NCBI RefSeq assembly: GCF_945873775.1
Contig: NZ_CAMCEC010000001.1
Span: forward strand, 62,001-126,000
Source: an uncultured Treponema sp.
GTDB lineage: Bacteria > Spirochaetota > Spirochaetia > Treponematales > Treponemataceae
Length of the DNA: 64,000 nt
Direction of reading: 5' to 3'
Under the pieces are notes generated by a model that was given only the letters and a program-made list of their open reading frames with translations, ran no database searches and was not told the origin of the DNA. Made by a program: the position numbers and the translations under genes. Of the stretch, positions 6,733 to 10,228 are shown piece after piece (the stretch's first letter is position 1; each line of letters opens with the position of its first letter).

Positions 6733-8841
6733 TTAAACTCTAAAGCGGTCAATCTGGTCTGCAATATTCGAAATAGAGCCTTTTACCTTTGAAGAAATCT
6801 CGCTTAAGGCGGCACCAGTTTCGTTTATTTTCTTTGCGCCAACCGCCATTTCATCCATGCTTTCCTTCATAACCATTGTGGCATCCTGAAGCCGTTTTAC
6901 TTCCTCAAGAATCGCCTGATTTCCGGCTGACATTTCAGAAGAGGCGTTGCGAACTTCGGAAGAACTGTCGTTCATGGAATGAAGAGCCTCGTTTATCTGC
7001 TTAGAGCCTTCGGTCTGTTCTTCCATTGCCGACTTAATCTGAACAACAAGCTGGTCTGTATCCTTGATTTTCTTGGAAACATTTTCAAAAGCCGAACTTG
7101 ATTCCGCGGAAGAAGCAACAACTTCATCGATAGATTCACGGATATTGTTAAGCTGGTCGCCGATTGTCTTTGACTGCGAAGTGGAAGTTTCTGAAAGCTT
7201 GCGGATTTCGTCTGCTACAACACTGAATCCTTTTCCGGCTTCGCCTGCGTGGGCTGCTTCGATTGCGGCGTTCATGGCAAGAAGGTTTGTCTGGCTTGCA
7301 ATTGAAGAAATGGCGGCGTTTGCCTCCTGAAGCATTGCGGACTGCTTTTCAATTTTTTCTATCTGCTCGTTTACGACTTGCTGCTTAGAAAATCCGTTCT
7401 GCGCGTCAGACTGAAGCTCGCTGAATGAAGAAGCCATTTTGTCAACGGACTGATTTACAGAAGAAATGTTTCCAATCATCTGCTCAACGGCAGCGGAAGC
7501 CTGGCTTACACCTGCGGTCTGGTTTTCAATCATTCTTTCAAGCGAAGAAATATTTGAAGCGATTTCATTTACAGCCCCGGCGGTTTCTTCAACACTTGAG
7601 CTTTGGCTTACAATCTGGTTTCTTACACTGTCAATGTTTGCAAGAATCTGCGTGATTGCACTGGAAGTATTTTGAGTGCTTTCTTCAAGAACTTCTCCTG
7701 CACTAGAAAGCTCATTCTTAGAATTTTTTACATCGGAAATAATTTCCTGCAATTTGCCAACAAATTTATTGAATCCTTTTACAACAACGCCGATTTCGTT
7801 GTTGGAATTTATTTCAATTCTTTGTGTAAGGTCGGCGTTGCCTGAAGCGATTTTTGTTATTGCGTAGTCAAGTTTATTCAATGGCTTTATTGCGCGGTAC
7901 ATAAGGAAGCCTGCTATGCTTACAAGAAGAATCGCGCTTATAATAGAAAGCCAAGTCATCTGCCCCATCATTGAAGTAATTGAAGAATAGATTTCACTCT
8001 GAAGAACAAAAATTCCAATAGACCAATGTGTGCCTTGAATAGGCGTAAAACTTACAAATTCAAGAGCCTCAGAGAATCCTTTTATCCAGGCAGTTCCTGT
8101 TTTACCTGCAACCATTTGCTTTGCAAGCTCGCCCATGTCTTCATGGCCTTTTGAATATCCGGTAAGAAAGTTGCGTTTCATGACCCAATCTTTGTTTGGA
8201 TGGGAAAGAACTGTTCCATCATCTGAAAGAATAACTGCATATCCAGTTTTTCCAACTTTTATTGAAGTTGCAACATCATCAAGGTGTTTTACATCAACTA
8301 TACCTGCAAAAAGACCTATAGTTTTTCCATTATGAACAATGGCATGAGCAATATGAATAATAGTTTTTCCTGTTGTTTTGGAAACTAAAGGATCTGCAAC
8401 AAATTTTGTTTTTCCTTCTTGCATAATAGCTTTGAAGTATGAACGGTCAGAAATATCTGCAGTGGGTCCTGTGTCAGTTGTGCAAATGCCATCTGGTCCC
8501 ACAACCAGTACATAGTCAAAGAGTTCTGAACGCTCGCCTTCATGAGCAAGAAGCCATTTTTTTATTGCGTCAATGTTTCCTGTAGAAACGACATCCGCTC
8601 TTAGGTAATAATCTAATTCTGAAAAATAAACATTCATTTTTTCCTGAAATAGTTGCGAATAGGCAGATGCAATAACTGCATAATCTTCGGCAGTATCAGA
8701 AAGCACAGACTTTTTTGTGATTTTTCCTGTTACAATAATTTGCAGGAAGTTAAAAAATATAATTGAAAGTCCTACAAAAAGAACAAGCCTGAACACAAGG
8801 CTCTTGCGTTTTTCGGTATTTGATGAAGCATTTTCTCCCAT
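6733..8841 (-). CDS. Methyl-accepting chemotaxis protein with dCache-type sensor
   Basis: 702-residue chemoreceptor. TM1 is at about 15-37. A PAS-like dCache ligand domain covers 40-290 (core [16 protein letters not shown] and DRSYFKAIM). TM2 is at 296-316, then HAMP to about 370 and a long coiled-coil signalling domain with the conserved tip ([16 protein letters not shown]). It should feed the CheA/CheW arrays encoded at 47-51 kb. The ligand is unknown; dCache receptors often bind amino acids or carboxylates. ATG at 8841 is preceded by AGGAGG at 8853-8858, so the in-frame extension to 8892 is rejected. A near-consensus promoter with a G10 tract upstream lies 5'. Confidence 0.95.
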
Positions 8842-8898
8842 AATAATAAATTCCTCCTTAAAAATAAAAACCAGAGAATGTTTCAAAAGCATCTTTTA

Positions 8899-8984
8899 TG
8901 TCATTTTCGGGCTCGACCCGAAAATCTAAAAAAAATATATATTACAATCATTTAGAGATTGTCGTATCAAGTACGACAATGACA
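8899..8984. repeat. Two-hairpin dispersed repeat, intact copy
   Basis: TGTCATT-TTCGGG-CTCGA-CCCGAAA-ATCT (8899-8927) and its inverted partner AGATT-GTCGTA-TCAAG-TACGAC-AATGACA (8956-8984). An almost identical element in the opposite orientation is at 46236-46318, so this is a complete unit of about 86 bp. It lies inside the predicted leader of the chemoreceptor mRNA. With the promoter, the G10 tract and the single unit at 9103, it accounts for most of the 301-bp gap 8842-9142. Confidence 0.85.
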
Positions 8985-9034
8985 TTTTAAACTTATTGAG
9001 TATTCTCCAATTCTTAACAATACACTTGGTTTAA

Positions 9035-9062
9035 ATTATATAACAAAATCTTCATCTGTCAA
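9035..9062 (-). promoter_or_regulatory. Near-consensus chemoreceptor promoter
   Basis: Minus-strand TTGACA (9057-9062), a 16-bp spacer and TATAAT (9035-9040). An A7 run on the coding strand lies just upstream of the -35 box, and the G10 tract begins 15 bp upstream of it. The leader would be about 187 nt and includes the two-hairpin repeat. Confidence 0.8.
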
Positions 9063-9077
9063 CTTTTTTTACAAGTA

Positions 9078-9087
9078 CCCCCCCCCC
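9078..9087. repeat. C10/G10 homopolymer upstream of the chemoreceptor promoter
   Basis: Ten consecutive C on the plus strand, or ten G on the chemoreceptor coding strand. It sits 15 bp upstream of the -35 box. No other G/C run of this length is seen in the window. It is a likely slipped-strand site. Confidence 0.9.
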
Positions 9088-9102
9088 GTCTAATATTTTT
9101 TA

Positions 9103-9131
9103 AGATTCCCGTGTCAAGCACGAGTATGACA
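9103..9131. repeat. Dispersed hairpin repeat, single unit
   Basis: AGATTCCCGTGTCAAGCACG followed by AGTATGACA. One arm has a small decay (AGTA instead of GGAA). It lies 3' of the secreted-protein gene ending at 9143. Confidence 0.65.
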
Positions 9132-9142
9132 TATTTGCAAGT

Positions 9143-10228
9143 TTATTTTCCGTGATCAAGGACGCGGCGGTTCCAGTCTTTTGGAGGGTCTTCAATTATG
9201 CTCCAGTCAAAGTCAAGAATTCCATGCGGAGGAAAAAGAGGCTGTGGTGGCGGATGATTTTTTTTCAGATTTTCAGCAAGAATTTCTTCAAGAGATTTTC
9301 CATTTTCAAGCGTCAAATAAGGCTCGCCGAATGCGCAGATTGTTGAGTAAACAGACTCCTGAGGAACTTGAATTCCATTTAAATCATTTGAAGATTTTAT
9401 TTTTAAAACTGAATTAAAAGTACAGTCAGCAGGAAAAGAAGAAATTTTTTTCACACTGCGGATTTTGGTTCTGCGCCCTGTAACGCAAGTAAAAATTTGC
9501 CCGGCTACAACAAGATGCTTTGGAACAGAATATTCACTTCCTGCGTCGGAAAAAAAAGCCTGGGCGGAACTGTCGTATTCCATGTCGGTTTTCCAGTAGC
9601 GAATCTGGTAAACTGCTGAATCCGTGGCAAAATAAGACAAAAGCTCCTTGCTTGAAACTGGCGGACTTATTAAAATTCCAGAAGCGTTTCCTGAATCTTT
9701 CCAAAATCCAGCGCGCCCTGCTTCCCCGCTCTGCCTTATGACAAATTTCAGAAAAAGCTTGTCGCCAATTACAGCAACTGGAACATTGTAAATTTCTTTT
9801 CTATTCGGATATTTTATTTCAAGATTCCAGGCGCCAGAAGGAATTCCGTTCGCATAAAGAATTCCGCCGTCATTCTGCAAAACGCCGTTTCCATCTGCCT
9901 GCGAAAAAAGCTCATCGGCAAGCGGAACATATTTTATGCTGATTTCCTGTGCAGGGCTTTTTGAAGTTGTGTTGTTTACGTCCCGCGGATTTTTTTCTGA
10001 ATAAAGGCTGCTTTCTGCCGCGCGGTCATCGTACCAAGTGTAAAAAGTTCTAAGCACAGCTTGGGGAATTGCGCCGCCGTCATCAGAAACGTAGCCTGAA
10101 TCAAAGACAAAGTAGCGGCTGGAATTTTTCCATACGCCTTTTAAAAGCTGAGGAACTTCTTCCTGTGAAAAAATTTTAACTGAGAAAAGTAAAAAAACAA
10201 ATGCTAGAAGTTTTCTTTTAAAGACCAT
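9143..10228 (-). CDS. Secreted protein of unknown function
   Basis: 361 residues with a signal peptide (MVFKRKLLAFVFLLFSVKIFS, cleaved near QEE). I do not recognise a named domain. The mature protein mixes short beta-type segments (RYFVFDSGYV, NLEIKYPNRKEIYNVPVAVI) with a proline-rich end (NHPPPQPLFPPHG) and no membrane helix, which suggests a periplasmic or surface location. The ATG at 10228 lies 25 bp inside the end of thiI, after GGGGAA, so it is translationally coupled to thiI. It is the last gene of a run that begins with two predicted beta-barrels. Confidence 0.75.
   Translation of the reverse strand: MVFKRKLLAFVFLLFSVKIFSQEEVPQLLKGVWKNSSRYFVFDSGYVSDDGGAIPQAVLRTFYTWYDDRAAESSLYSEKNPRDVNNTTSKSPAQEISIKYVPLADELFSQADGNGVLQNDGGILYANGIPSGAWNLEIKYPNRKEIYNVPVAVIGDKLFLKFVIRQSGEAGRAGFWKDSGNASGILISPPVSSKELLSYFATDSAVYQIRYWKTDMEYDSSAQAFFSDAGSEYSVPKHLVVAGQIFTCVTGRRTKIRSVKKISSFPADCTFNSVLKIKSSNDLNGIQVPQESVYSTICAFGEPYLTLENGKSLEEILAENLKKNHPPPQPLFPPHGILDFDWSIIEDPPKDWNRRVLDHGK

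Follow-up and report, generated by a model that had tools for sequence, protein, structure and literature searches.

Poly-G phase variation is already known for surface proteins of Treponema pallidum, in which tracts lie at the promoters of tp0126/OmpW and of tprE, G, J and L, with a further tract upstream of fliG1 (PMC7864442, PMC3373638). The tp0126 tract forms the spacer between the −35 and −10 hexamers, a length of 17 nt giving the best expression (PMC7864442), and the tprL tract overlaps the −10 region. Neisseria meningitidis porA and fetA also carry a homopolymer between −35 and −10 and vary by slippage at the promoter. At N. meningitidis nadA, the contacts of the RNA polymerase alpha subunit at −43 to −76 overlap a repeat that precedes the core promoter, and expression changes stepwise (PMC2791445). 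This repeat is built of TAAA tetranucleotides and needs NadR operators and IHF flanking it. In Helicobacter pylori, the chemoreceptor gene tlpB has a variable G-repeat close upstream, located in the mRNA leader, which works through the small RNA RepG and yields graded output (PMC8295292). Searches of an open-access library found no description of such promoters from gut Treponema.

The locus described here, a G10 tract at a chemoreceptor promoter, shares several properties with the T. pallidum loci, namely the bacterial order, coding-strand poly-G of ~8–11 near promoters and many length-variable tracts per genome (PMC7864442, PMC3373638). It differs in having its tract ahead of the −35 hexamer, neither within the spacer nor at the −10, and in targeting a chemoreceptor rather than an outer-membrane protein. 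Unlike in porA and fetA, the tract is outside the spacer, and the hexamers stay 16 nt apart at any tract length. Its position in the RNA polymerase alpha zone resembles that of the nadA repeat, from which graded output would be expected (PMC2791445), whereas no conserved upstream operator is seen beside it. With tlpB it shares the type of target gene and a G-repeat close upstream, although the tract lies upstream of the consensus promoter, where the tlpB repeat is in the leader.

The G10 tract and its promoter

The window, meaning the whole stretch of 64,000 nucleotides that was analysed, belongs to a genome of 2.59 Mb in 49 contigs (G000), which was covered by sequence searches and by the surroundings of its tracts and genes. 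It was compared with two close relatives, G062 (MAG S8M_St_45, the same genome as G108) and the nearly closed G169. The closest MAG matches were labelled Treponema or Spirochaetales and several came from ruminant samples, so this Treponema was taken as host-associated. The features of the site are as follows.

6733–8841, minus strand: chemoreceptor gene (MCP), 702 aa, with dCache_1, HAMP and MCPsignal domains (Pfam); orthologues in G062 and G169
8898–8987 (within 8866–8998), no strand: two REP-like inverted repeats, located in the leader after the promoter and ahead of the start codon (sequence)
9035–9040, minus strand: −10 hexamer TATAAT, separated from the −35 by 16 nt (promoter scan), common to three species
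9057–9062, minus strand: −35 hexamer TTGACA (promoter scan), common to three species
9064–9070, minus strand: A7 tract (sequence); an A-tract is also present in G062 and G169
9078–9087, minus strand: G10 tract, C10 on the plus strand (sequence); same place in G062 (G10) and G169 (G8)
9104–9132, no strand: REP-like inverted repeat directly upstream of the tract (sequence), missing in G062
9143–10228, minus strand: upstream gene for a protein of 361 aa that matches no Pfam family, ending 55 bp ahead of the tract

Read 5' to 3' on the minus strand, the site runs from GGGGGGGGGG (9087–9078) through the 15-nt TACTTGTAAAAAAAG to TTGACA (9062–9057) and, after 16 nt, TATAAT (9040–9035). An earlier note on this DNA had placed G10 on the coding strand 15 bp from TTGACA-16-TATAAT, and its sequence and coordinates were right. 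It had also called this a near-consensus chemoreceptor promoter; the match is perfect (12/12), and this conserved promoter stands shortly before the dCache_1-HAMP-MCPsignal gene. The window holds no other 12/12 promoter of the form TTGACA-N16–18-TATAAT, and shuffled sequences predict 0.02. The G10 tract is the longest G/C run in the 64 kb, followed by a run of 5, and order-2/3 Markov models predict ~1e-4 runs of at least 10 per window. It is a homopolymer well beyond chance length, as in a contingency locus, and its place ahead of the core promoter is that of a distal repeat of the nadA type. Transcription would begin near 9028, which would place the tract at about −50 to −59. The A7 tract presumably resembles a proximal UP-element subsite.

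The on/off variation of the chemoreceptor that the earlier note envisaged does not fit this layout. In porA and tp0126 the tract is the spacer, whereas here it stops 15 bp short of the −35, outside a promoter that is perfect already, and the hexamer spacing is fixed at 16 nt. A spacer-length switch cannot operate from that position, and on/off switching by spacer length is unsupported at this site. We also rejected a further same-strand promoter with the tract as its spacer; the TACTTGT after the tract does not make a −10, and nothing 15–19 nt upstream of it would serve as a −35.

The same site in related genomes

The corresponding site in G062 reads G10-TACTTGTAAAAAATG-TTGACA-16-TATAAT, and in G169 it reads G8-TACAAAAAAATG-TTGACA-16-TATAAT, ~110 nt ahead of the chemoreceptor ATG. 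The G062 contig breaks off ahead of the chemoreceptor, the orthologue of which opens another contig. Alignment showed that the tract, the A-tract and the promoter were kept together in three species, with the 16-nt spacing in all three. The DNA upstream of the tract contained nothing common to the three, consisting of a REP element, the end of the upstream gene or an inserted element. The upstream gene (9143–10228) is itself 93–94% identical to its G169 and G062 counterparts.

The inserted element of G169 (L222) is ~370 bp long with inverted ends (GCAGGGCAAACGCATTATAAATA...) and lies directly upstream of the G8 tract. Its far side bears TATTAGACAGGGGGACTTG, which is similar to the sequence around the window's tract.

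These flanks bear on the possibility that tract length sets the distance from the promoter to a regulator bound farther upstream, as at nadA, where the repeat likewise lies outside the core promoter (PMC2791445). Since the three species have unrelated DNA there, no common operator is evident on which a change in spacing could act, and we regard this explanation as improbable. The tract might instead act in RNA reading through from the upstream gene, as a G-repeat target or structure. The G-repeat that regulates the chemoreceptor gene tlpB from its leader (PMC8295292) offers a precedent, and the G062 tract starts only 10 nt past the upstream gene's stop codon. However, the consensus promoter, the sole one in the window, lies downstream of the tract, so that the main chemoreceptor mRNA would exclude it; we consider a role in RNA improbable.

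We searched 146 genomes for a G-run 6–24 nt upstream of a TTGACA promoter. The search recovered this locus in the three species, with a control count of 0, and single matches in two further genomes that were apparently coincidence. By these matches, the arrangement of a tract upstream of a predicted promoter is rare and specific to this locus. At the loci inspected in more distant relatives, the upstream gene was kept, often next to thiI, with no tract-bearing chemoreceptor after it, and the more distant chemoreceptor homologues had no G/C run of at least 7 within 400 bp upstream.

Poly-G tracts across the genome and the genus

The genome of the window contains 60 G/C runs of at least 8, 27 of at least 9 and 6 of at least 10. 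Models trained on the window minus the tract predict ~0.35 (order-2/3) or ~7 (order-1) runs of at least 8 genome-wide. On reading the 60 tract sites, we recognised two main functional layouts, with the tract either as a promoter spacer or within coding sequence. The first comprises about ten sites (L012, L017, L019, L020, L027, L038, L069, L070, L075 and L089) at which the G-run separates −35 from −10, as in TTGACA-AATCCC-G9-TACAAT, often 35–60 nt ahead of a small lipoprotein-like gene. The tp0126 layout is thereby reproduced exactly at other loci of this genome, and the design is also that of porA and fetA.

The spacer layout extends beyond this genome. A genus-wide search for TTGAC-N-G7-N-TANNAT gave matches in 55 of 146 genomes, or 30 of the 64 good ones, against 2 matches to the reversed pattern. 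Spacer tracts of the form TTGACA-N-G8..10-TANNAT numbered up to 12 per genome, chiefly before small lipoprotein-like genes, and the hexamers were 14–19 nt apart at 92% of 143 tabulated genus sites. Judged by sequence, these genus-wide putative promoters are of the porA/tp0126 design. We consider them a bigger finding than the window's own site; the data indicate that poly-G phase variation would be a broad strategy of the genus, extending to chemoreceptors.

This class also bears on the plus strand of the window, where C10 could be read as the spacer of a promoter (TTTACA-17-TAATAT, 9068–9096) that would transcribe the upstream gene in antisense, in a phase-variable manner. Its 9/12 matches in the promoter scan and its optimal 17-nt spacing speak for it. 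Against this, the −10 hexamer is weak and has become CAATAT in G062, while G169 no longer has the arrangement, which is not conserved; the spacer class of this genome also carries G rather than C on the strand of its promoters. We give this reading hardly any credence.

The second layout includes a lipoprotein-like family with a shared ...GG-V-FDELEPGTYT... motif, in which G8 is in frame (L009, L022, L088) and G9 out of frame (L026, L085). Members of this family are likely to undergo frameshift phase variation. A repeated unit, PLEPSEQE..NARLRARI- followed by G8 or G9 and then TAGTGGAATGG, was observed at L014, L018, L021, L086, L087 and L090, where a short open frame ends in the tract. Tracts at L080, L091 and L095 lie in intergenic DNA with no apparent promoter or gene link, so the position of a tract is by itself no proof of function.

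To compare lengths, orthologous tracts were paired by their flanks in G108 and G169. Of the 52 pairs, 25 differed in tract length (G108, 9 of 27; G169, 16 of 25); the searches listed only tracts of at least 8, so shorter orthologues were missed. Strict criteria (the same immediate context, and flanks of at least 600 bp with at least 93% identity) left 15 pairs, of which 7 differed, compared with 0.2 expected from the indel rate of the flanks. The clearest change was at L022, G8 versus G10 within 1000 bp of identical flanking sequence. The lengths are those of the assembly consensus and may include some error, and the excess of differences is nonetheless large. Across the repertoire, length thus changed much faster than the flanks did, as is typical of contingency loci, and the G10 tract is by its sequence a member of this genome-wide set of putatively slippery poly-G loci. 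At the site itself the lengths were G10, G10 and G8 across three species, the two nearest species both having G10, and this difference is no more than suggestive of instability.

Chemoreceptors as targets and the possible effect of the tract

The genome encodes 15 MCP genes (16 matches, two within one gene), three of which have a sense-strand tract of at least 8 close upstream. With 30–40 genes bearing such a tract, chance gives p ~0.001, for a total of 2300 genes that is assumed from genome size and with genes called by simple ORF rules. Poly-G tracts are over-represented upstream of chemoreceptor genes. Besides the window gene, the targets are the MCP gene at L017/L358, with G9 within the spacer of TTGACA-18-TATTAT, and that at L076/L356, where G8 adjoins TAGATAAT 22 nt from the start and no clear −35 is seen. 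The comparison with T. pallidum made in the earlier note therefore holds in part; a repertoire that varies in length between relatives and the three of 15 chemoreceptors agree with it, and the tp0126 spacer layout is not found at the window's site. Likewise, the changes in length that it had supposed are seen between close relatives for the repertoire, while this tract was compared between species only (10, 10 and 8).

The general idea of a putatively slippery poly-G tract at a chemoreceptor promoter is well supported by the comparisons. For its effect, we favour graded tuning of the promoter through the alpha-CTD (UP) region, with a probability of roughly 0.45. Slipped-strand mispairing would keep shifting the length of the G10 tract within a population, and gain or loss of G beside the A-tract would alter alpha-CTD contacts or local DNA shape. 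Chemoreceptor transcription would then rise or fall stepwise. The position of −35 relative to −10 would be unaffected by tract length, so the tract would act as a dimmer rather than an on/off switch, and the amount of one chemoreceptor would differ from cell to cell. Against tuning, a consensus promoter in principle needs no upstream help, and the nadA effect depends largely on a repressor, an equivalent operator for which was not seen at the window site.

The main rival is that the tract is a hypermutable repeat without effect on the chemoreceptor, carried along upstream of a self-sufficient promoter. The promoter is already perfect at 12/12, and several other tracts lie in seemingly unlinked intergenic DNA (the three loci named above), both as this explanation would have it. 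A neutral repeat fits less well with a tract that stays beside the promoter in three species despite replaced or rearranged DNA upstream, or with the over-representation of MCP genes among tract targets. We take it as a serious possibility, though not a favoured one. The site also raises the question of whether a homopolymer is able, by itself, to tune a promoter from a position outside the spacer.

The chemoreceptor itself has diverged unevenly. It is 82% identical overall to the G062 and G169 orthologues, with 98–99% identity in the signalling half and just 57–60% in the periplasmic region (residues 45–300). Between G000 and G169, 172 of 175 fourfold-degenerate sites are the same in residues 301–702, against 40 of 70 in residues 45–300. 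Because synonymous sites diverge too, replacement of the ligand-binding region by recombination, beyond amino-acid selection alone, would account for the pattern, which points to exchange of the sensor domain. If chemoreceptors vary by poly-G, the choice of taxis signal would be partly random, and individual cells may differ by chance in the targets of their swimming. Chemotaxis in host-associated Treponema could then be a contingency system, in which several chemoreceptor genes have slippery poly-G promoters of differing geometry (spacer, −10 edge, UP region), at least one also swaps its ligand-binding domain by recombination, and a clonal population bet-hedges its taxis targets; we consider this broader picture possible but less likely than not.

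The chemoreceptor start is best set at 8841 (AAGGAGGAATTTATTATTATG), giving a leader of ~187 nt. The leader in G169 is without the two REP-like inverted repeats, and the REP-like stretch of the window's leader matches dozens of sites in its own genome and in relatives.
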